Virus record (IMG/VR): IMGVR_UViG_3300034073_002726 | Span: 1-58,460 of that record | Direction: 5' to 3' (one strand) | From: a virus | DNA: 58,460 nt | Shown: positions 1-16,653 of the stretch, piece by piece | Layout of the letters: every line of letters starts with the position of its first letter | How positions within the stretch are numbered: the first letter of the stretch is position 1 | The notes under the pieces: model-generated | Databases searched by the model: none | What the model was told of the DNA's origin: nothing | What the model saw: only the letters and a program-made list of their open reading frames with translations | Made by a program: the position numbers and the translations under genes

Positions 1-3000
1 TTCTTCTGGTTGAAGCGCTGGATCTCCTGCATTGCTTCGGCCCGTGCCTCGGCATCCTTGGCCATGGTGGCGCGTGCTGCCTTGGCCAGCAACTCCTGGC
101 GGCGCTCGCCCAAAGCACGGTCCTGCTGGTAGATCGCGCTCTTGCCCTCAGTGGCATTGCGCACTTCCGAGGGCGAGAAGCCCAGGAACTGACCCGCCAC
201 TCCAGCCAAGCTCACCTCATCCTGGATGACCACTCCGGTTTTGTCCTGCACGCCCTCGGACTCGTAGCGAATCGCTTTGATTGGCCCTCGCAGTGCTGCG
301 GGCATCATGGCTTCCAGCCCGCGCGCATATTGCCCCTGGGACATATCCTGCAGGCCCTTGAGCACGTTGATGCCGATACCAGCCACCGGACCCAGCGCTG
401 CAGCCATAGCGGCTTCACCCAGGCGCTGCCCTTCCAGGCCCTCCTGCACGTCAGGGAAGATCAGCCGATCCAGGCCTACCCGGCCGGAAATGTCCCATGG
501 CGTCAGGCGCGACAGGCCATGCGCCAGAACTTCTGCTGGCTTCTGGCCCAAAGTGTCGGCCAACATGTTCTGTAGCGCCACCTTGGCATCCCATGGCTCG
601 TCGTCATCCCCGCCAATCATCGAGGCAGCCGCCAGCAAGGTTGTCACCATGGGCAGGCCCAGCACCCCGGCGGCTGCTGCATGGGTGGCCAGCAACCCGC
701 CCAGCGCCTTGCGCGCCTGTGCACGGACTTCTGGCGATTCGCCCTTGATGGCCTGCTGCGCATTGCGTGCCAGGGTATAGACCATGTTCTGGCCATACTG
801 CTTGAACAGCAACAGGACCTTGGCCACATTGCCTTGCATGAACCGTGGGCGATTTGCCGCGCCGTAGTCGAAGTGGCCATCGTAGGTTGCCTTCGTCGCT
901 TGCTCAAAAGCCGCTTTGTGGTCGGCACCCGCCTCGCGCGCCAGCCGGTAGGCCGCCACAAACGTCACCTGGCGGTTGAAGCGCTCGGCGTGGTGGAACA
1001 GGAACGATGCCCAGCGCATTACTGGCCGGATCTTCCACATCACCCCCATGTCCTCGCCCTGGGCGATCCCGGCCAGGTCGTGCGCCATGGTCACGTCGAT
1101 GGTGCCCGCGCGCACCGCCTCGTTGTAGGCCGCCAGCTCGTCGGCATTGAGCGATGCCGTGATGTCGTTCTTGCCCTTTGCCGCTTCGGCACTGGCCTTG
1201 AGCAACGCGGCGCTGGCCTTGCCATACCCCCACTTGGCCCCCATGATCGGGTACGCCACCAGCGCCGTCTGGCTCAGGTTGACCATGGCCGATGCGGGGG
1301 ACAAGCCCAAGTGGAACACGAACCCCAGGCTGGTCAGCGCTGTGGAAACCGGGTTGCTCTTGGGGTTCATCAGCGACTCATGGCGCTTGTTCATCTCGTC
1401 CACCACACGCTGGGCACTGTTCTGGTCGAAGTCCTCCACCTCGCGCCAGTCGTCCACATGCCGCTGCATCGCAGCCAACTCGTCCTGCATCAGGTCCGAG
1501 TAGCGCAGCTTTGCCAGATACCGGGCGCCGTGGAACATGTTCTGCGCGAACGCCCGGCGTGCGTCCTGGCTGAACCCCGGCGTGCCCTTGCGGTGAATGC
1601 CGTGCTTGGCCCAGCTCAGGTCAGGCAGGCTCGACAGGTACAGCTGGCCCAGCGTGTCCTCCAGCTCTGCACGCTGTGCCGCGTCCATGTCCTGCTTATC
1701 CAGCACCTGGTACAGCTCGGTCATGAAGCCGCGGCCCACCGCGTCACGGTCAGCGATGAAGTCCTTGGACAGCATCACCCGGCCCACGGTGAAACCTTTG
1801 TCGCGCGGGAAGGCCGACAGCAGGTTATTGCGCAGCGCCTCGGCCTCGGCCTTGGTTTCTGCCCGGCTCACGCTCTCCACCTTGCCGTCTGGCCCCTTCA
1901 CCGTCACCGCATACTGGCCAAAACGCGCCAGAGGGAAGTACACCCCCTTCACCGCCTTGAAAAACTCGTCGTCCATCTGCTTGAGCAGCGCCGCCTTGCG
2001 CTCGCCCTTGATCTCGCTGCGCTCGATCCGCTCCTTGATGGCGCTGCGCACCTTGGCGTGGTGCGACTTGTAGGAATCCCGCGTATCGGCGTAAACCTTC
2101 TTGGCATCGTCGCTCAGCAGGTTGTACTTGCGCCGCAGCTCCAGGTACTTGCCCTTGTCGTCGCCATCCACCAAATCCTCGGCAGGGTCGATCTGCGCCA
2201 AGGTGGCATCGTGCATCAGGTCGGCTAGCTTGGATTCATCCTGGAGCTTGGACCAGCGCGTCACCAGCTGGTCAGCTTCGGCACCGCCCTCGTTCTTGTC
2301 GGCTTCCATCTGCTGCACCAGCCGGTTGTACTCGGCCAGCGGCACCAAGTCGCCGTAGATGTCCACGATCTGGCGGCGGCCCAGGGCCTGCAGCCCAATG
2401 CCCAGGTAGTCCGTCAGCTTGAAGCCAGCGCGCTGCTTGACGTTGGAAACGGTGATGGATTTGATGGCGGCGCCAATGCGGGCGCCTGGGCCGTCGTCTA
2501 CGCTGCCTGCAGTGCGGCTGTAGAAGATGCGCTCATCCGCGCCAAACGCCTCGCCTCCATCTCGGCCACGACCAAGCCGGGATACATCCTCGCCTGCCCG
2601 AGCCAGAAGGCTTCCTCGTTCGGGTAGTTGCCGCGCGCCATCAATGGGTGTGGTTTGGAGGTGTCGGAATAATGCTGCTCGCGCAATAGTTCGCCAACCC
2701 GCTTGTCCCGCTGCTCCTGCTCCATGAGCCAAGCGATACTCGGAGGCGGATCGCTTGAGAACGAAAGCCAGTTGTCCGCGAGCCAGAGAACGTCCGGTGT
2801 CGGTTCGGTAGAAGCCTCGGTCGGGGTCATATGCGATAAGTTTGGAGGTCGGCATTGCATTATCCAGCGCCTTCACGCTGGCCGCAATCATTCTTTCTAC
2901 GTTGCCCACGTCGTCGCCATACACCCAGCGCAGAGGTGGAACGCCATCGCCGCCGCGTACCTGATCGGGGTGTGGTGCCAGGTGCGCTGTGGTGCCGAAC

Positions 3001-6000
3001 TTGAGGGCGCTGGACAGCATCTGCTCCAGGCGGCGGCGCAGCGCTATCGTGCTCAGGCCGGCCGGGTCGCCAATGAAAATCTTTCCTGTGTTGTGGGCGT
3101 AGTTCGTGGCGATGGCGTAGACCTTCTCCCCACCCTGCCCGGGCTTAAGCAGCGACACATCCAGCCACACATCTCCTGTGCGCGGGTCCACATCCTCGGG
3201 GTTCTCCCCGGGGCGCTCAGTGATCTGGTCGGTGATTTCTCCGTCCACCTGGTTGTAGCCATACAGGCTGGGGCCGTAGGGATTGCCGGTGCGCTCTGTG
3301 ATGCGCGCCACGCCGAAGTCAGGATGGTTCAATGTGTACATTGTCTCCCCGGGCAGGCGCGTCACGCGGACAGCAATCTTGGAGTCAATGTCAGCAGCGA
3401 TCCCCGCCACCGTATCTTTGCCAGACTTCGGCAGCGCAAACAACTCGTCCGCCTTGGCAAACTCGGCCAACGCCTTCTTTCCTGCATCCTCACCCAGGCT
3501 GAATGCTGGCTCAAAACCGCCCTGAACCTCAGGGGCTGCAACGGTAGCCGCGCGCCCGCGCTCCACAAAGCCGCGTGCGGGAATGATGTAATTATTCACA
3601 ATCTCAGCATCAGTTAGCTTGAGGTTGTTGAAGTACGGGACGTTTTCTCTCAGCCACGTCCTGATAACTGCGATCGCACGTTTTACAAAGCCGATGTCTG
3701 GCCGGACCTGTGAAAGTTCAGCCAGCACTTCCTCGGCCACCTCTCGGCGCTGCTTTTGCACCTTCAGGTCTTTCCCATACTCCTCGGCCTTGGGCTTCAT
3801 CAGATCGGGCCGGGCCATGGCGATCTGGTCCAGGATGCCGTCCAGGTCTTTGCCAAACATGGCGCGCAGGCCGTGGTGCCCCAGCGCTTCGTGGAACAGG
3901 GTTTCTGCAGCGTCACGCACGCTCGTCAGGCCATCTGCCACCAGATACACCTGGCCGCGGTAGTAGAAGCCACGGGGCGAACCAGTGGCGCCGCCTGCAC
4001 GCTGGCGGGCATCCTCCAGGCGCGCAGCCTCTGGTACGCGCATGTCCTGCATATTGGGCACCACGATGATCGTCGGCGCCTGGGCCCAGCGGGCGGCGAT
4101 GGTGTCGGCCACCTGGCGCACAGTGGTTTCGTTCATGGCGCCGGGGGCACCACGGCTCATCATTGGGGAGTCGCCTTCAGGCTTCAGGTACACCTCGCGG
4201 ATAAACCAGCCCCCATCCTTGCGGAAGGTGAACGGGTCAATCTTCTGCGCCTCGTCCTTCAGCAGGTCTGTGCGCACGATGCCGGTCAGAACCTTGCCCT
4301 TGCCGGTGGTGTGCGTGATGATTTCCGCGCCGTTGCGGTCCACCGTGCCCACGGCGTCAGGGTTGGCGGCTTTGGGTGCCTTTGGTGCTGTTGGCTTGCC
4401 TTCGACCTTCGCCTGGGCCCGCTCTGCCTTCTTGGCTTCGCGCTCGGCCTGCTCGCGTTCTGCCTGGGCTGCGGCCTCCTGCTCGGCTGACATTGCCCGC
4501 GGCGGCATGCTGATGTCTTCGATTTCGTCAAACAGCTGGCCAATGTCTTTGGTGTCGCTCAGGTCAATGGCTGGGCGGGCATTGGGCGCCTTGTCCTTGT
4601 TCGACTGCTTTTCCAGAATGACGATGCGCGTGACCACCGCCGTGCCGGCGCGTTCAAACGTCACCTGCGGCAGCTTGATTTCGGCCACCATGTAAACGCC
4701 GTCCGCGGGGCGGAACTTTTCTACACGCGGTCCTGGCTTAATGCTCTTGGCCAGGGTCAGCGGCTTGCCTGCAAACCGATCCTCGCCAGGCGCACGGAGA
4801 AAGTCCCCAGATGCGGCGCGGTCCACGCGATCCGCAACAACGTCAATCGCACGCCCCATGAACTCCACCGTTACGGTATCGCCGCGGTGAATCTCTCCCA
4901 AAGTTGGGTGTTTGTAGATCGGCTTGGATAGGCGCTCAGTCTCGCCATACATCCACTGGTCAAACCGCTTGTCAGCAGCTGGGCCAGTCGGGATCAGCGC
5001 AGCAATCCGGCCACCGTCACGCAGGTGCTTCACCGCTTTGGCCAGGTGCTCAATGGCCGTCTTGCCACCCACACCAAAGGGCGGGTTCATCGCAATACCG
5101 TCATATTTGTTGACGATGTTGTGATCCTCAAACGTGCCGTCAATGATCCGGTCCTTGCTGGCATCCATGGCCATGGCCAGGCGGGCGCGCAGCGTGGTGG
5201 ATGGCTCAATCACCGTGCGGTTGCTGATTTCCGGCAGCCAGCGCGCAATGGCCCCGTGCCCGGCGCTGGGCTCCAGGGACGATTCGCCGCCTCGCAGGCC
5301 CAGCCACTCAGCCATCTTGAAGCCCACGGGCTCAGGCGTGGCGAAGTAGTCCACACCCTCCTGCGCCTTGGTCTTGCTGTTCTTTTTCTGGGTCGCCCAG
5401 TAGTAGGTTTTCGCGCGGTCGTAGGCGGTAATGGCGGCATTGGCCATCTGGTCCCGCTCCTTGCCGCCCTTGCCCTCGCCTTCGTGGCCTGGAGGGTAGG
5501 TGTCCGACTCCTCAAACGCGGAAATGAATGAGTCTTTGAGTGCGCGGGCTTGCTCGCCCATGCCCAGGTTCTCGGCAGTGCTGGCGCGGCCTGCAATGGT
5601 GGTGGCAAAAGTCCACTTCTCCCAGTTGGTGCCGGTGTTCAGGTAGCGCATGATGGCGTCGCTGACCTGACCAGTGCGGTAAATCCGGCCCTCTTGCTGG
5701 ATGGCCAGCGTGGGCGCAGTAGGCTGGCCCAGGTTAATCAGCACGCGCTGGTGCTTGCCCGTGGTGTCGTGGCCGCTCCAGCCCTTGTTTTTGGCCGACT
5801 GCACCAGCATCACCTGCGGGCCGCTGGCGTCGTCCTGGAATCGCTTGTAGCGCTCCAGCAGATCCGCCTTTTTCTCGTCGCCGTTCACCAGCATGGTGTC
5901 GGGCAGCTCACGCTTGAACACCTCGATCGGGCTATCCAAGTCGCTCAGCGGTGCGTTCACCAGGCGCTTGAAGCGGGAACGGAACTCTGTCAGCGCCTCT

Positions 6001-9000
6001 TTGTAGGCCTCAAAGTCGGCTTTGCGCTCCTCGGGGAAGTCCTCGGGGAGTGTGCGCGGCACCTCAATATCGAACGGGTTGAACCCCCCGCCCTTCTTGT
6101 AGTCGTGGAACACCACCACCTTGCGGCCCAGGCCCAAGTGCTGGCGCACGATAGGAATCACCTCGGTCGCCTTGATGGCCTCCAGCAGGTAGCGGCGGCT
6201 CAGGAAGTCGAATTTCTTGCTGATAACGTCGCGCAGCGCTGAATACCCGTTCTTGTTGGCGTCCTCGCGGGCCATTTCAGAAACCCAGTTCAGCGCCTCG
6301 TCAATCTGGTTGCCAATGCCAGAGTCCACCAGCACAAAGCGGCGGTCATAGTCGGCGGGCACATCCAGCATACGGGCCGACAAAGAGCCCTTCTTGCGCA
6401 GCCAGCCGTTGAAATTGCGCTGCAGCAGCCCCGTATCCACCTTGGCGGGGTCCGGCTTGGTCAGCTTGTTGTAGCGCATCGAGTAACCGAAGTGCTGCAT
6501 GAAGAAGCGCTCGCGGTTGTCGCCCTGGTTGTAGCCGCGGGACTCGGTCTTGTCGCTGGGTTGGCCCTCGTTGTAGTCGAACAAGTAGCCATTGGCCCAG
6601 TCCACAGTGAACTCGTAGGCAAACGGCGTGGCCGACAAGGCCAGCAGGCGGGCGCGCTTGGCGCCCTGCATACCGTCCACCTCAGCCTGCACAGCCTCCC
6701 GCGCCTCGCGCAACTTGGCGGCCAGCGCATCGGCCTCGCGCTGCAGCTTGGCGTTTTCCTGGCGCACCGACTCCATCATGGCGTCCATCGTGTCCAGGTT
6801 GTTGAGGATCTTGTTGTTGCCCTCAATCCGTGCTGTCAGGTCACGCTGCCGGTTCAGATCATCCCGGTTCAGCATGGTGTGGCGCTGGCTCGCCCCGTCC
6901 GGGTGGTGGGTGATGGCGCGCAGGTTGGCCAGGTAGGTTGTCACCTTGCCGTCCGCCGACTGCATCAGCGTGTGCGATTCATCCGCCACCACCAGATCCC
7001 ACTGGCGGCGCGCCAGCGCATCGTTCTCACCCAGGTTGGCGTATGTCGTGATGACGATGCCCTTGCCTGCGTCCTGTGTGTCCTTCAGCTTGGTGATCTT
7101 CAGGCCCAGCGGCTCACCAGACTCCACCCAATCGGCGGCGATCTTGTCATCAGGCACCACAATCAGGGTGTTGGTCTTGCCCTGGCGCTGCATGCGCTTG
7201 ACCACGCCCAGGCCAGTGAAAGTCTTGCCCGTGCCCGTGCCATTGGTGAACAGCATGCCGTAGCCGTCAGGCACCGCGAAACGGTCCTCGGCCTTCTTCA
7301 CATCCTCCTGCTGGCCTGCAAGCAGGTAGGGCAGCGTCGCCTTGATGTTGTCCAGGTCGCCGGGCTTGACCGGCACCTTTTCAGCGGCGCGCTGGCGCTC
7401 CAGCTTGCTTAGCTTGTCATTGCCTGTTTGAGCAACTGCGTCAACTTGCGCTGCTGGAATGGGGTCAATGGATACTCCATCGACGCCAATGTCACTGCCT
7501 CGTTCACTGAAGTCACTTCCGGCAGAGACATTCGCAGCATCGGCTGCTGCGTTTCCTCCAGGTAAGAGGAAATCGCCTCGGTTTCCACCAGCAGCGGGGC
7601 CACCAGTCGGTACGCCAGCACCACGCGGTTGTCGGCCCCGGCCTTCTCCAGTGGCTTGTCCACCAGCTTGTCCAGCTGGGCGGGTAGCTCCTCGGGCGTC
7701 AGCCGGAACAGCGTCGCCCATGGCTGGCTCAGCGGCTGCATCGCCGCGATCTGGTTCCACACTGCCATTGGCACCTGCTGCATCTTGGTTCTCCTGCGCG
7801 GTAATCGCGTCCACATCGGCCGATTCAACGGCGGCCGCGCTGTCCATGCCGTCCAAACTTGCGGCACGCGGGTCATATTTGACACCCATGTACCACGATT
7901 TCAAATAGGGCCGCACACCGTCGCCCAAGTCTGCCAGCATGGCGCTGGCATAGGCGGCGAAGGTGCGGGCACCCTTCTCAATGTGATAACCGGCCAGCGT
8001 GATGCCGTCGATCATCATTTCTGGGTCAATCCCACTATTGAGGCGTCCCAGCTTCTTCTTCAGGCGCTCACGCGCCTTGGCGGCGGCGTCTTCGGTAAAC
8101 ACCGTGTTCGCGCTTACAGCTGGTGCCGGCGCTGGTGCTGGCGCCTCGGCGGGCATGTCAAAAATATTCGTCTGCCCGGTCAGGCTGTCCAGCGCGTCCT
8201 GGCCCAGTTCAAAGTTATCCGCTGCACGCTCTGACGCCTGGGCAATGCGCTTGCGCTCCTCGGCCTGGCGCTCTTGCTCCCGCGCCTTGCGGTCGGCTGC
8301 TTCCTGCTCGCGCTTGGCTGCCTCGGCGGCGTCCTGGCGGGCCACGATTTCCTCGGGGGTTTGGGCGGTCAGCAGTGGCTCGGGCTCGGTAGGTGGAGCT
8401 GCCTTCTCTCCCTTCAAGCGCGCGGCTGTCCTGCGCTCCAACTCGTCAAACTGCGCATCGGTGACATCCCATTCGCCATCTTCGTTTACGCCAATGCCCA
8501 TTTCGGCGGCTACGGCAGCCTGCGCTTCGGTGTAGTTCTCGCGGCCTTCGGCTTTGCGCTTCAGTTCAGCCTGTGCTGCAATCGACAATTGACGCAATTC
8601 AAAACCGCCAGCCGCTTGCACAACCTCATGGGTGCCAGTCAGGTCATAGCGCTCCTGAAATTGCTGCGCGCTGATTTTGGATTTGAATGGCTTCCCGTTT
8701 TCTTGGCGAACCACACGGTCAGACCGCAGGCGGCGCACCACTGCGTCGCGTTCTTGGCTTGCCGCCCAGGCGTTGTAATCCTTGGGCAGACCTTCTACTG
8801 GCTTGCCGCCCTGCTCCACATATTTGACGTAGGCCGCAGCCTTTTCGTCCATGGCTAGGCCATCAAATGCACTTGACCCCTTGACGCTTGCAGCCTTGTA
8901 GAGCTTGGCAGCCTCGCCACGCTCCAGTAGGTTGTTGAGAATCTGCGTCGGGAATGTGCGGAAATCGCGCTCCAACTGCTGGGCCGCGTCTGATGGCGTT

Positions 9001-12000
9001 GCTGCTGGCTTTTCTGCCTTGGTTTTTGAATCCTTTGCCGTCTTCGGCTTCGCCGCCTTCTTGGGCTTCTCGGCCTTTACACCTGCGGCTTGTGCTTCAG
9101 GTTCGCCGCGCTGTCCTCCTGGGGCAGCGGCTGCTTGGGCGCCATTACCTTCTTGGCCGCCTGGATTGCCTTGGCCATCTTGCTGTTGGGCTTGAGCCTG
9201 GGCATTTTGTCCGGGTTGGCCTCCGCGATCTTGATTAGATCCAGGCCCGCCTTCTCCTGCTGCTTGTCCCCCGATTCCCGGCTGGCCTTCACCAGGACCG
9301 CGCCCAGTATCGACGCTGCCAGCGGGTTGTCCTCGGCCTTCTTGGGGTTGAGCTTCTGCATTGCCTTGTCCTTCATTGAGTCGGTTGACGATTGTCGCAA
9401 GAATGTCCCCAGCCGTCACCACGTCGCCAAACATGCCAGCGTCTGCGCTGGTCGTCATGGCGCCCTGCACATAGTCGGCCAGATGCTGGGTCAGCTTTTC
9501 CTTGCCAATGGCGCGGGTCAGGTACTGGCCGCTGTAGAACAGGCGCAGCATGCCCACCGTCATCTCGGCGGGAGTCTCGCCCGTCATCAGATCCGGCTGG
9601 TTCACCAGGTCGTACAGGCTCATGCCGTCGCGGCGCGCCTTGCGGATCAGGCCAATGGCCTGCAGCAGGTTGTCGGTAATGTCGGTTTGCGGGTTGATGG
9701 CGTTCAGGCGGGCAGAGTCGCGCATGTTGGCCCACTGCCCGGCCACGGTTTTCAGCGCTTCGCCAATCGCCTTGATGTCCGTATCGGTGGAGTCAAACAT
9801 TTCTTCCACGATGTCGGAATCACCATAGGCGGCCTGCATCAGCGCGGCCTGGATGCGCTTGCGGCCGTCTTGTGACAGCTGGCCGTCTGCCGTCATCATC
9901 CCGGCCACATCCTGGCCAGCGCCCTGCAACTTGCCAATGAAGGCCCGCACAAAGTCGCGATTGGCAGCGCTGGTCACTTCGCCAGGCTGGTACACCGCCA
10001 GCACGCTGGAGTCCATCAGCGGTGCATCCTGGCGCGCCAGCTCGGCAGGGCTCATGCCCAGGCCTTGGCCCTGGCTCTTGGCGGCCATGCCTGCCGTGTT
10101 GTCGCTGTCCGAATACACCCGCACCAGGGCGGCATTCGGCGTGCGCGCAATGATGTCGGGCGAAATCCCGTGCATTGGAGTGTCAGCCTGCATGGCCTGC
10201 ACGTACTCGCCAGCCGTGCCAAGTTCGTGGGCACCGCGGATGCCCGCCGTGCGGCCATTGTTCAGCGCCTTAAGCGTGCCCGGCACCGTAGAGTCGAACA
10301 ACTCGTTGCGGCGCCCGTCTGCAAAGTTGGAAGGGTTCACCTTGGTGGCATCCACCACGGCATAGCGGAACGGCACCCGCTGGCCGTCGCTCATTACCGC
10401 CACATCCTCACGGCCATAGGCGTCAGGCGCAATGTCCTTCAGGTCGTCGCCCACGGCAAACACCATGGGCGCTCCACTGTCCGGTGTGCGGCTGGGGCCC
10501 AGGCGCATGTAGTCGGGGTTGCGCGCAATGTCGCTCATTTGCACCACCGAAGCCGCGCGGCCGCGGTCGCGGTTCTGCATGTTCACGTCTTGCGGCGCTT
10601 CCAGCGGCGGCAGCACAGGCGCAGCGCCGCCCTTGAGCGAGTCGTACTCGGCTTTGAGGGCGGCATGCTCGGGTGTGCCCACCTTGATCTGGCCTGGCGT
10701 GAACCCCTTGGACTTTGCAAAACTCCAGAAGTCGGCCGGCGCGGATTGCGCTACCGGGCCAGCCTGTGCGGCCTCTACCCCAGCGGCTTCCACCGCCCCA
10801 GCTCCCGCTGCGGGTACTCCGGCGGCTGGGCCTGCGGGCTGTGCTCCCACAGCTTGCGGCGCTTGGCCTGGCTGGCTGATAGCTGGGGCTGCTTGAGGTA
10901 CTTGGGGTGCTTGCGGTACGTCTTGGACATTCACGGGCTCCTGCGGGCGAACGACAAAGCCACCCGCCACGGGCACCACGGCACCGGGCGTCTTCTTGGC
11001 TGCACGGTCTGCTGCCATGCGGGTCTTGAACGGCTCACCGGCTGGGTTCAGGATGTCGGTGGGCGCTGGCGTAGCGCGTTGCGATACAGCCTGGCGCAAG
11101 CGGTCTGCCACAGGGTCGGTCTGGGCGGGCGCTTCGGATGCCGCGCGGGCAAGGCGCTGCTCTGGCGTCAGGCCCTTCTCGGCCTGCATGCGCTGCTGCA
11201 CATCGGCGGGCGTGATGCGGCCAGCGTCGAAGTCGCGCACGTAAGCGCGGGCTGCTGGCGTGTTCACGCCGCGCAGGTTGTCCAGATAGTTCTGCACCGG
11301 GTCTGTTTGCAGATCCAGGCCCACACCATCTGTGCGGGTGCGTGGCGCACGCTCCACGGGCGCGGCATCAGCCTGCTGCATGCGGGCAATCGTTTCGTTC
11401 AGCCGGGCCTCGCCCTGGGCGGCCATGTCTGGCGTCACCCAATTGGGCGGGACCAGCACGAAGCCACCTGCAGGATGCTCGGCCACAGCCAAATCCAGCC
11501 CACGATTGCGGGCTTCGTCCAGCATGCGCGCAGCATCGCTGGCGGGCATCGGGGGGCGGCGTTCGGCCACATTGGCCACGTTGGTGATGGCCGCGGCTTG
11601 CGCTTCATTGTTCATTCCCAGCGCGCCAGCCAACGGGTCGGCCCGCCCGGCCATGCCGCCGCCACCCAGCATGGAGCCCATGTCGGTATCGGTCAGGCGT
11701 TCGCCCAGCACAGGAGGTGGTGCATTCTCAGCCAGCAGCCGATCCAGCAATTTGCGGTTGAGTTGGAGTACACCTTTCGCCGCATCCGGCCGATTCAGAA
11801 CCGCATAGGCGCGCAAGGCGTCCTGGCGGGCGCCATCGGGCAGGGCGAGAATCTGATCGCGCACCGGGTCATCCACAGGCTCGGGCACGGGCTCGGCTGC
11901 CGCCTGCTCATCCACCAGCGGGGCGCCAGCCTCTACCGCCTGCGCCTTGGCCTCCACGCCTGCATTCACCGCCTTGGTCAGCGCGCCGGACTCGGGTAGC

Positions 12001-13115
12001 TTCTCGGTGGCTCGGATGGCGTCGGCGGCTTCCTTTGCGGGGTTAACGGCTGGGTCTAGCGCTGCCGCCTGACCTTCAAGCGGGCCGGTAATACCACCCA
12101 ACAAACCACCAATCGTGCCTTCCATCAGGCCTTGACCTACCACGCCTTGCATACGTCGCTCTGGCGCCAGCACACCGGCGTCCACCGCCGCATCATTGCC
12201 CGCAAAGCGCTCTTGCGCGCCTTGGCCGCCTTCAGTCGCAAATTCTTTGCCAAAACCCTTGGCCACGGAAGACATCACGCCCGATTGAACGGGCTTCTTG
12301 CCAGCGCCAAGCAAGGTGCGCTCAATCGGCCCGGTGGCAGACGCCACACCACCAAGTACACCACCAAGCACCTGCTGCATCGTGCCTGCGCCGCCATACT
12401 CCTGCGCTTGCGCGGCCAGCGCGCGGGCTTCCTCTTCTGGCATGCCTTGCTGTCTGGCGTTCTCGTAGGTTTGCTCGAACTGGGAGCCCTTGACCGCGCC
12501 AACACCCTGCACGGCGCCCAGGCCAATGTTGGTTTTAAAACCAAACTTTGCGGCTTCCTCGACCGCTTGCTTGGCGGCACCGGATGCTAAAAACACATCC
12601 TTGCTCACGCCTGCCGCTTTGGCCGCCTGTGCCAGCTTGAGGGCCTGAGCCACTTTGCCCACACCCAAGGTGGCGAACGATCCCACCCCTTGTGCGATCA
12701 TCTCGGCCGGCTGATCCCACAACATCCCCAGATAGGCCTGCGCCTCATCTAGTTTGCTGCCCGACGCTTCCGCCTCTTTGATGCGGGCCATGCTGGCTTG
12801 CGTCGCGGCCTGAGACTGTGCGCTTTTTTGTGCGAACAAGAACTTTGACGCATCATCCAGCCCACCCGATACAGGGTTGTCCGCGCCCAAAAAGTCGCTG
12901 ATGGACTTGAACGAGCCCAAAGCCCCCTGCCCCAGCGACAAACCCACATCGCCAATGCGGCGGGCTACGCTGGGTTTTTCGGCTGCAACAGGCGCCGCAG
13001 CAGAGGCCGCCACTGGCGCATCAGCAATCCCGGCCCACTCAAAATCGGCAGGATCGGCATCTACCCAACGGGCTTTTTTCTGAGCGATCTGTCCTACTTT
13101 GGGTTTGGTTGCCAT
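1..13115 (-). CDS. Giant polyvalent phage protein (ParB-like, helicase, methyltransferase, PLxRFG); 3' end outside window
   Basis: From ATG 13115 one frame stays open for about 4,371 codons and leaves the window at base 1. Recognisable parts in order (residues from that ATG): a ParB/DdrB-like segment near 850-1030; an SF2 helicase near 1915-2500 with Walker A GTGTGKT at about 1959, a DESH box near 2045 and motif VI QEGRIYRTGQ near 2475; an adenine-methyltransferase-like segment with EPSAGHG near 2615 and NPPF at 2677; a zincin-like HEALGHHG at 3075; and PLARFG at 3728, the signature of PLxRFG phage proteins. The C-terminal part has hydrophobic stretches. Size and make-up match the roughly 4,600-residue virion-associated protein of Bcep22-like podoviruses (family knowledge). 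Ejection with the DNA and protection from restriction are inference. Linkers near 1250-1345 and 1780-1900 are G/Q/A-rich and are overprinted by other genes. Confidence 0.9.
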   Translation of the reverse strand, partial: MATKPKVGQIAQKKARWVDADPADFEWAGIADAPVAASAAAPVAAEKPSVARRIGDVGLSLGQGALGSFKSISDFLGADNPVSGGLDDASKFLFAQKSAQSQAATQASMARIKEAEASGSKLDEAQAYLGMLWDQPAEMIAQGVGSFATLGVGKVAQALKLAQAAKAAGVSKDVFLASGAAKQAVEEAAKFGFKTNIGLGAVQGVGAVKGSQFEQTYENARQQGMPEEEARALAAQAQEYGGAGTMQQVLGGVLGGVASATGPIERTLLGAGKKPVQSGVMSSVAKGFGKEFATEGGQGAQERFAGNDAAVDAGVLAPERRMQGVVGQGLMEGTIGGLLGGITGPLEGQAAALDPAVNPAKEAADAIRATEKLPESGALTKAVNAGVEAKAQAVEAGAPLVDEQAAAEPVPEPVDDPVRDQILALPDGARQDALRAYAVLNRPDAAKGVLQLNRKLLDRLLAENAPPPVLGERLTDTDMGSMLGGGGMAGRADPLAGALGMNNEAQAAAITNVANVAERRPPMPASDAARMLDEARNRGLDLAVAEHPAGGFVLVPPNWVTPDMAAQGEARLNETIARMQQADAAPVERAPRTRTDGVGLDLQTDPVQNYLDNLRGVNTPAARAYVRDFDAGRITPADVQQRMQAEKGLTPEQRLARAASEAPAQTDPVADRLRQAVSQRATPAPTDILNPAGEPFKTRMAADRAAKKTPGAVVPVAGGFVVRPQEPVNVQDVPQAPQVPQAAPAISQPGQAPQAVGAQPAGPAAGVPAAGAGAVEAAGVEAAQAGPVAQSAPADFWSFAKSKGFTPGQIKVGTPEHAALKAEYDSLKGGAAPVLPPLEAPQDVNMQNRDRGRAASVVQMSDIARNPDYMRLGPSRTPDSGAPMVFAVGDDLKDIAPDAYGREDVAVMSDGQRVPFRYAVVDATKVNPSNFADGRRNELFDSTVPGTLKALNNGRTAGIRGAHELGTAGEYVQAMQADTPMHGISPDIIARTPNAALVRVYSDSDNTAGMAAKSQGQGLGMSPAELARQDAPLMDSSVLAVYQPGEVTSAANRDFVRAFIGKLQGAGQDVAGMMTADGQLSQDGRKRIQAALMQAAYGDSDIVEEMFDSTDTDIKAIGEALKTVAGQWANMRDSARLNAINPQTDITDNLLQAIGLIRKARRDGMSLYDLVNQPDLMTGETPAEMTVGMLRLFYSGQYLTRAIGKEKLTQHLADYVQGAMTTSADAGMFGDVVTAGDILATIVNRLNEGQGNAEAQPQEGRGQPAGSVDTGRGPGEGQPGIGGQAAGEGGPGSNQDRGGQPGQNAQAQAQQQDGQGNPGGQEGNGAQAAAAPGGQRGEPEAQAAGVKAEKPKKAAKPKTAKDSKTKAEKPAATPSDAAQQLERDFRTFPTQILNNLLERGEAAKLYKAASVKGSSAFDGLAMDEKAAAYVKYVEQGGKPVEGLPKDYNAWAASQERDAVVRRLRSDRVVRQENGKPFKSKISAQQFQERYDLTGTHEVVQAAGGFELRQLSIAAQAELKRKAEGRENYTEAQAAVAAEMGIGVNEDGEWDVTDAQFDELERRTAARLKGEKAAPPTEPEPLLTAQTPEEIVARQDAAEAAKREQEAADRKAREQERQAEERKRIAQASERAADNFELGQDALDSLTGQTNIFDMPAEAPAPAPAPAVSANTVFTEDAAAKARERLKKKLGRLNSGIDPEMMIDGITLAGYHIEKGARTFAAYASAMLADLGDGVRPYLKSWYMGVKYDPRAASLDGMDSAAAVESADVDAITAQENQDAAGANGSVEPDRGDAAAEPAMGDAVPADARGATRPAGQAGGQATGEGRGRQPRGAGVPTGGPAAGGNRGDFLLPGGNAAADAANVSAGSDFSERGSDIGVDGVSIDPIPAAQVDAVAQTGNDKLSKLERQRAAEKVPVKPGDLDNIKATLPYLLAGQQEDVKKAEDRFAVPDGYGMLFTNGTGTGKTFTGLGVVKRMQRQGKTNTLIVVPDDKIAADWVESGEPLGLKITKLKDTQDAGKGIVITTYANLGENDALARRQWDLVVADESHTLMQSADGKVTTYLANLRAITHHPDGASQRHTMLNRDDLNRQRDLTARIEGNNKILNNLDTMDAMMESVRQENAKLQREADALAAKLREAREAVQAEVDGMQGAKRARLLALSATPFAYEFTVDWANGYLFDYNEGQPSDKTESRGYNQGDNRERFFMQHFGYSMRYNKLTKPDPAKVDTGLLQRNFNGWLRKKGSLSARMLDVPADYDRRFVLVDSGIGNQIDEALNWVSEMAREDANKNGYSALRDVISKKFDFLSRRYLLEAIKATEVIPIVRQHLGLGRKVVVFHDYKKGGGFNPFDIEVPRTLPEDFPEERKADFEAYKEALTEFRSRFKRLVNAPLSDLDSPIEVFKRELPDTMLVNGDEKKADLLERYKRFQDDASGPQVMLVQSAKNKGWSGHDTTGKHQRVLINLGQPTAPTLAIQQEGRIYRTGQVSDAIMRYLNTGTNWEKWTFATTIAGRASTAENLGMGEQARALKDSFISAFEESDTYPPGHEGEGKGGKERDQMANAAITAYDRAKTYYWATQKKNSKTKAQEGVDYFATPEPVGFKMAEWLGLRGGESSLEPSAGHGAIARWLPEISNRTVIEPSTTLRARLAMAMDASKDRIIDGTFEDHNIVNKYDGIAMNPPFGVGGKTAIEHLAKAVKHLRDGGRIAALIPTGPAADKRFDQWMYGETERLSKPIYKHPTLGEIHRGDTVTVEFMGRAIDVVADRVDRAASGDFLRAPGEDRFAGKPLTLAKSIKPGPRVEKFRPADGVYMVAEIKLPQVTFERAGTAVVTRIVILEKQSNKDKAPNARPAIDLSDTKDIGQLFDEIEDISMPPRAMSAEQEAAAQAEREQAEREAKKAERAQAKVEGKPTAPKAPKAANPDAVGTVDRNGAEIITHTTGKGKVLTGIVRTDLLKDEAQKIDPFTFRKDGGWFIREVYLKPEGDSPMMSRGAPGAMNETTVRQVADTIAARWAQAPTIIVVPNMQDMRVPEAARLEDARQRAGGATGSPRGFYYRGQVYLVADGLTSVRDAAETLFHEALGHHGLRAMFGKDLDGILDQIAMARPDLMKPKAEEYGKDLKVQKQRREVAEEVLAELSQVRPDIGFVKRAIAVIRTWLRENVPYFNNLKLTDAEIVNNYIIPARGFVERGRAATVAAPEVQGGFEPAFSLGEDAGKKALAEFAKADELFALPKSGKDTVAGIAADIDSKIAVRVTRLPGETMYTLNHPDFGVARITERTGNPYGPSLYGYNQVDGEITDQITERPGENPEDVDPRTGDVWLDVSLLKPGQGGEKVYAIATNYAHNTGKIFIGDPAGLSTIALRRRLEQMLSSALKFGTTAHLAPHPDQVRGGDGVPPLRWVYGDDVGNVERMIAASVKALDNAMPTSKLIAYDPDRGFYRTDTGRSLARGQLAFVLKRSASEYRLAHGAGAAGQAGWRTIARAALFRHLQTTPIDGARQLPERGSLLARAGEDVSRLGRGRDGGEAFGADERIFYSRTAGSVDDGPGARIGAAIKSITVSNVKQRAGFKLTDYLGIGLQALGRRQIVDIYGDLVPLAEYNRLVQQMEADKNEGGAEADQLVTRWSKLQDESKLADLMHDATLAQIDPAEDLVDGDDKGKYLELRRKYNLLSDDAKKVYADTRDSYKSHHAKVRSAIKERIERSEIKGERKAALLKQMDDEFFKAVKGVYFPLARFGQYAVTVKGPDGKVESVSRAETKAEAEALRNNLLSAFPRDKGFTVGRVMLSKDFIADRDAVGRGFMTELYQVLDKQDMDAAQRAELEDTLGQLYLSSLPDLSWAKHGIHRKGTPGFSQDARRAFAQNMFHGARYLAKLRYSDLMQDELAAMQRHVDDWREVEDFDQNSAQRVVDEMNKRHESLMNPKSNPVSTALTSLGFVFHLGLSPASAMVNLSQTALVAYPIMGAKWGYGKASAALLKASAEAAKGKNDITASLNADELAAYNEAVRAGTIDVTMAHDLAGIAQGEDMGVMWKIRPVMRWASFLFHHAERFNRQVTFVAAYRLAREAGADHKAAFEQATKATYDGHFDYGAANRPRFMQGNVAKVLLLFKQYGQNMVYTLARNAQQAIKGESPEVRAQARKALGGLLATHAAAAGVLGLPMVTTLLAAASMIGGDDDEPWDAKVALQNMLADTLGQKPAEVLAHGLSRLTPWDISGRVGLDRLIFPDVQEGLEGQRLGEAAMAAALGPVAGIGINVLKGLQDMSQGQYARGLEAMMPAALRGPIKAIRYESEGVQDKTGVVIQDEVSLAGVAGQFLGFSPSEVRNATEGKSAIYQQDRALGERRQELLAKAARATMAKDAEARAEAMQEIQRFNQK
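2498..2830 (-). CDS. Nested alternate-frame gene inside the giant gene (110 aa, unknown)
   Basis: This frame begins at codon position 2 of the giant gene and is open for 110 codons from ATG 2830; an in-frame ATG at 2860 is also possible. The product looks like an ordinary soluble protein, acidic and tryptophan-containing (VLWLADNWLSF, EEAFWLGQARMYPGLV), unlike the Arg/Pro/Ser-rich strings typical of shadow frames here. Its codons mostly end in G or C, whereas the giant-gene frame in the same stretch has weaker third-position bias. I see no strong Shine-Dalgarno site. I do not recognise a family. Confidence 0.5.
   Translation of the reverse strand: MTPTEASTEPTPDVLWLADNWLSFSSDPPPSIAWLMEQEQRDKRVGELLREQHYSDTSKPHPLMARGNYPNEEAFWLGQARMYPGLVVAEMEARRLARMSASSTAALQAA
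7409..7783 (-). CDS. Nested alternate-frame gene inside the giant gene (124 aa, unknown)
   Basis: ATG 7783 is preceded by AGGAG (7795-7791) with a 7-base spacer, an ideal ribosome site. The 124-residue product is balanced and helix-rich (RLTPEELPAQLDKLVDKPLE, VVLAYRLVAPLLVETEAI, FQQRKLTQLLKQAM) with strong G/C third-position use. The overlapping giant-gene frame here is a low-complexity G/A/Q/R linker (residues about 1778-1903) just before the helicase. The visible coding signature therefore belongs to the nested frame. No family recognised; the hydrophobic segment near residue 55 is too short for a confident membrane span. Confidence 0.75.
   Translation of the reverse strand: MQQVPMAVWNQIAAMQPLSQPWATLFRLTPEELPAQLDKLVDKPLEKAGADNRVVLAYRLVAPLLVETEAISSYLEETQQPMLRMSLPEVTSVNEAVTLASMEYPLTPFQQRKLTQLLKQAMTS
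9077..9361 (-). CDS. Nested alternate-frame gene inside the giant gene (94 aa, lysine-rich, unknown)
   Basis: ATG 9361 follows AAGGA (9373-9369) with a 7-base spacer. The 94-residue product is basic and helical (ASILGAVLVKASRESGDKQQ, KAGLDLIKIAEANPDKMPRL, KMAKAIQAAKKVMAPKQP). The giant-gene frame across the same bases is a G/Q-rich linker (residues about 1250-1346) between the ParB-like and later segments. The frame relation is the same as for the nested genes at 7409-7783 and 2498-2830. A small basic protein could bind DNA or act as a head-related protein, but nothing here shows that. Confidence 0.7.
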   Translation of the reverse strand: MQKLNPKKAEDNPLAASILGAVLVKASRESGDKQQEKAGLDLIKIAEANPDKMPRLKPNSKMAKAIQAAKKVMAPKQPLPQEDSAANLKHKPQV

Positions 13116-16642: not shown

Positions 16643-16653
16643 CGGAGTCAACG
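16643..16653 (-). promoter_or_regulatory. Dispersed phage motif copy 2
   Basis: CGGAGTCAACG core immediately after the stop of the tail-assembly gene and about 57 bases before the acetyltransferase-like gene. On the minus strand it supplies TTGACT; about 17 bases further is ACAGTA, a weak -10. Confidence 0.5.

Follow-up and report, generated by a model that had tools for sequence, protein, structure and literature searches.

A giant gene of the virus record IMGVR_UViG_3300034073_002726 very probably contains a real, conserved overlapping gene, with two coding frames on the same bases. In the window (the whole stretch of 58,460 nucleotides that was analysed) the nested gene occupies 7409..7783 on the minus strand; it opens with ATG 7783, runs for 124 codons and closes with a TAA ending at 7409, and its predicted product (P0001, 124 aa) is all-helical. 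It was identified from its ORF, its homologues, the periodicity of substitutions and an AlphaFold2 model.

The Giant Gene and Its Nested Reading Frame

The enclosing ORF (3..13115, minus strand) comprises at least 4371 codons, and its 3' end lies beyond the window. Pfam searches placed in it, all on the minus strand, a ddrB-like ParB domain (10113..10592; PF18763, E 7.8e-16), a SNF2/ResIII-type superfamily II helicase module (5600..7400; PF04851, E 5.6e-11; PF00176, E 9e-6; also seen by alignment) and the polyvalent-protein domains LPD37 and LPD39 (1932..3182; PF18853, E 9.5e-53; PF18858, E 9.8e-47). The helicase is followed by a DNA adenine methyltransferase module (4965..5360, minus strand), recognised by its NPPFG motif and by weak matches to PADLOC methyltransferase models. 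This set of domains (a helicase and an adenine methyltransferase, together with LPD and ddrB-ParB domains) marks the giant as a polyvalent protein of the DarB-like kind. The DNA methylase-helicase dyad of such proteins has been described (PMC5512222); in the archetype the methyltransferase comes first, whereas in the giant gene studied here the helicase precedes it. The DarB protein of phage P1 has been reported to be located in the virion (PMC9024508).

The nested ORF lies directly 5' of the helicase module, in frame +1 of the giant ORF (13115 − 7783 = 5332, which is 1 modulo 3), and overlaps the linker N-terminal to the helicase (7413..7784, minus strand). The first-pass annotation had described a 124-codon frame with AGGAG seven bases before ATG 7783, and both are present: the bases 5' of the start read GCGCAGGAGAACCAAG-ATG, with the Shine-Dalgarno motif at 7791..7795 (minus strand) and a 7-base spacer. 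Its further remarks, a strong G/C bias at third codon positions and a low-complexity linker in the giant frame, hold as well. GC at codon positions 1/2/3 is 0.65/0.39/0.81 in the nested frame, close to the values in the flank that encodes the helicase (0.63/0.39/0.86), whereas the identical bases read in the giant frame give 0.81/0.65/0.39, unlike that flank. In translation the linker is rich in G/A/D/Q/R, and its count of bulky hydrophobic residues is a third of that in the nested protein. An in-frame GTG further upstream (7885) would allow a 158-codon version of the nested ORF; sequence conservation, the ribosome site and every homologue nevertheless favour ATG 7783 as the true start.

Homologues in Phages

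A tblastn search with the 124 residues against 50,697 phage records matched 8 of them, with 32-40% identity over 92-96% of the protein, the matched phages being Skulduggery, Parlo, vB_KpnP_ZX1, Ruegeria 45A6, Vibrio D274 and Vibrio 1.232.O. All six distinct phage records examined have the match within an annotated giant CDS and in frame +1, and none of the six carries a CDS annotation for the nested ORF. Scans of sequence collections, metagenomic phages included, added 28 further loci, and at 34 of 34 loci the nested ORF was intact with its ATG and the giant frame was open across it. The family now comprises 100 distinct proteins of 119-151 aa from named and metagenomic phages; almost no copies were found in two surveys of bacterial genomes (399 and 398 genomes). 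We found no description of the nested gene in the literature within our reach, which left out most subscription papers, and a term search of PMC5512222 for nested or overlapping genes came back empty.

A few loci depart from the usual arrangement. On a bacterial contig (L130 in G489, about 5563-5934) there is an intact solitary copy with Sel1-type repeats upstream and no helicase behind it, over which the linker frame is still open; this copy is either a relic or a stand-alone gene. Another copy (L157) appeared to be un-nested; measured against the giant frame upstream, it has the usual +1 register, and just downstream of it, at the helicase start (about 3990-4020), a GAGAGAG run seems to contain a shift of one base, so that the apparent un-nesting is consistent with a one-base indel, be it real or a sequencing error. 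On metagenomic contigs, the giant frame breaks 715 bases upstream of the nested ORF (L009/L046) or 815 bases downstream of it (L011), and these breaks could stem from split genes or from errors in assembly.

Selection on Both Frames

In a codon alignment, identity was higher in the nested frame than in the giant frame in all 397 pairs (mean 43% vs 28%). The fastest-substituting site, which in the flanks is giant codon position 3, becomes over the ORF giant position 1, i.e., the wobble position of the nested frame. Inside the ORF, giant position 1 was more variable than position 3 in 32 of 32 disjoint pairs, and in the downstream flank the reverse was found in 32 of 32; this sign test is the cleanest of those used, though the pairs still share deep branches. 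The first-pass annotation had placed the coding signal in the nested frame, and composition, identity and periodicity agree on this. A nested frame broken by stops over a conserved linker, sought among the helicase loci, was not found.

These comparisons bear on the simplest alternative, namely that a +1 frame stayed open by chance in a GC-rich, low-complexity linker and that its similarity among relatives is merely carried along by a conserved giant frame. The window is GC-rich, the ORF has just 124 codons, and other +1 ORFs of the giant gene do show such passenger similarity. However, a passenger would not surpass the giant frame in conservation in all pairs, nor would substitution periodicity switch to its frame; moreover, the ORF remains open in relatives from Vibrio and Methylococcaceae, whose GC is 44-48%, conservation extends to its start codon and ribosome site, and its product is predicted to fold with confidence. 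Given correct alignments, the periodicity and identity tests refute a chance open frame, to which we assign a negligible probability.

The giant frame was assessed by permuting synonymous nested codons in 51 representatives. It showed 0 stops where 86.2 ± 7.1 were expected, although the sequences are related, and P values from shuffles and from Shine-Dalgarno comparisons therefore overstate independence; in the same test the third frame showed no avoidance of stops (500 vs 463). That the giant ORF is in truth two or more genes, with an untranslated linker and the nested gene lying as an ordinary gene between them, might be suggested by the low complexity and poor conservation of the linker frame. 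Yet giant-frame stops are avoided across the linker, essentially all relatives keep that frame open, and a related DarB-like giant, gp69 of phage JC1, was detected in virions by mass spectrometry (PMC9144972), which together make a split gene highly unlikely.

Both frames are taken as coding because the nested frame is conserved with a switch in periodicity and the giant frame avoids stops. The comparative data show the nested ORF to be protein-coding and under purifying selection and the enclosing giant frame to be likewise kept open by selection, and both products are probably made. An overprinted gene within a seemingly single ORF, as first proposed, is thus upheld by every comparative test that was run, with one refinement: the giant frame is no mere artefact of annotation, since it too appears to be selected to remain open.

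Translation Start

The mean anti-Shine-Dalgarno energy was -7.0 kcal/mol at 97 distinct nested ATGs, compared with -3.35 at 16,645 other ATGs taken from the same DNA as the 97 homologues. The sequences show that the nested gene has its own conserved ATG and a strong Shine-Dalgarno sequence, from which initiation is predicted. Frameshift products are common in phages, and two overlapping frames on one mRNA could also be connected by a ribosomal frameshift out of the giant frame, yielding a truncated giant protein with a nested tail and no separate protein. We regard this as very improbable, since ATG comes first in all relatives and the ribosome site is present in nearly all; furthermore, several phages have a nested-frame stop just 9-15 bases before the ATG. 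A shift site would find almost no space there, and internal initiation is thereby favoured over frameshifting.

The Nested Protein

AlphaFold2 predicted an eight-helix protein (pLDDT 92.4, pTM 0.86), in line with the helical product expected at first reading. Foldseek searches of PDB and BFVD gave only loose helical resemblances (best E 1.2 and 1.5), VIA a best Z of 4.2, and a sequence profile search of PDB had a designed TPR as its best match (E 0.017); none of these resemblances hints at a biochemical activity. Neither single members nor sets of 29 or 54 gave a consistent match in Pfam, PHROG or NCBIfam, and PADLOC did not match the protein of the window. The nested proteins are usually acidic, with a median pI of 5.1, and no lipobox or signal peptide was evident at the start of the nested protein.

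Linkage to the Helicase

A search with the helicase segment retrieved, out of the 50,697 phage records, exactly the 8 records of the nested ORF. When loci were chosen by the adjacent SNF2-like helicase alone, the nested ORF was intact, started with ATG, lay in frame +1 and was wholly inside the giant/helicase ORF in 80 of 80, and a model of the nested family built before these loci were seen matched them with a worst E of 8.6e-10. A second helicase scan, with contigs partly shared with the first, found the nested ORF at 67 of 79 loci; the remaining 12 are stand-alone helicases that start right at the helicase core, without a linker. Every linker-bearing helicase locus scanned hence carries an intact nested ORF. 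The ORF is also found in Acinetobacter elements, inside helicase-methyltransferase genes that stand alone (1276 and 1982 codons), and no such ORF was present in the fetched stretches of the giants of PEp14, Atu_ph08, PBC5 and Mwe-JY07, which have a different helicase. Going by these scans, the family is confined to the linker of the phage helicase-methyltransferase, with one exception seen (the solitary copy in G489), and the nested gene almost certainly travels with this enzyme. The giant protein of Klebsiella phage ZX1 reportedly sets this phage apart from its sisters (PMC9505181); taking the published report by itself, an exchange of modules would fit this difference.

A Second Nested Candidate

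The periodicity scan and relatives revealed a candidate second nested gene (9077..9361, minus strand; 94 aa, frame +1) over another low-complexity linker, near the ddrB-ParB domain of the giant gene. Relatives were found at seven or more distinct loci, each of them in frame +1 and with an uninterrupted giant frame, and in 21 of 21 pairs the candidate was more conserved than its own linker. Some of these relatives occur in giants in whose fetched flanks the first nested gene was not detected. Start codons vary among the relatives, the product had no PHROG match, its predicted model is partial, helical and only partly confident, and avoidance of stops was not significant for this ORF alone (1.7 expected, P 0.08). 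The ORF is thus a candidate second nested gene, for which the comparative evidence is good but weaker than for 7783..7409.

A further +1 ORF of the giant gene (5608..5210, minus strand) has 46-62% similarity in close relatives. It overlaps the conserved helicase-methyltransferase coding region, a clear switch of periodicity was not seen there, and by these signs it is probably a passenger.

Discussion

Ribosomes would start internally on the mRNA of the giant gene, and each transcript would then yield both the giant protein and a separate all-helical, usually acidic protein of about 14 kDa. A comparable arrangement is Rz1 in Rz (lambda-type, and Bcep22-like phages), likewise a complete small gene in another frame with its own start; Rz1, however, is a lysis lipoprotein, whereas the nested protein is predicted to be all-helical and is encoded in the linker of a giant DNA-protection gene. 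In phage P1, the small protein Ulx is listed as aiding the localisation of DarB in the head (PMC9024508). Like the nested gene, Ulx is a small protein encoded beside a DarB-type methyltransferase-helicase gene, but its gene is separate, downstream of darB and non-overlapping, whereas the nested gene overlaps the giant gene. Homology to Ulx was ruled out (hhalign probability 0.1%), and the darB region of P1 contains no nested ORF of this family; the nested protein would therefore be analogous to Ulx, not homologous with it.

Judged by linkage alone, and by analogy, the small protein could quite possibly be a dedicated partner of the helicase-methyltransferase, e.g., a chaperone, an inhibitor of the enzyme while assembly is under way or a head-loading factor, because it follows the helicase even into the stand-alone genes of Acinetobacter elements. 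About equally probable is that the protein is real but acts independently, as an early or injected effector (e.g., in counter-defence or host takeover) for which the linker merely offers a safe site. Small acidic phage proteins often serve in counter-defence, and both the median pI of 5.1 and the solitary copy in G489 agree with such a role; the strict pairing with a single helicase subfamily in genes of differing architecture, and the absence of the ORF from similar giants with other helicases (PEp14 and the others named above), are less easily reconciled with it.

As to how the overlap arose, the helicase frame might have grown in the 5' direction through a small gene that lay upstream, and so have engulfed it; the nested protein, which folds, would then be the more ancient of the two products, and the disordered linker the one created by overprinting. 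More tentatively, the linkers of giant polyvalent proteins might in general have been made by overprinting small partner genes, with domains fused via the alternate frame; on the same tentative reading, every module could have its own hidden companion gene, inseparable from it in inheritance. If this is true, the giant gene studied here holds two companions, 7783..7409 for the helicase and 9361..9077 for the ParB module.

Nested phage genes are already known; new is a whole family of them tied to the linker of a helicase-methyltransferase. At least 100 distinct proteins are absent from annotation, as gene callers accept one frame per stretch of DNA. The family also appears to offer an unusually clean natural case of two coding frames under selection across deeply diverged phages, and its strict link with the helicase-methyltransferase may provide a lead on the assembly, loading or control of giant DNA-protection proteins.
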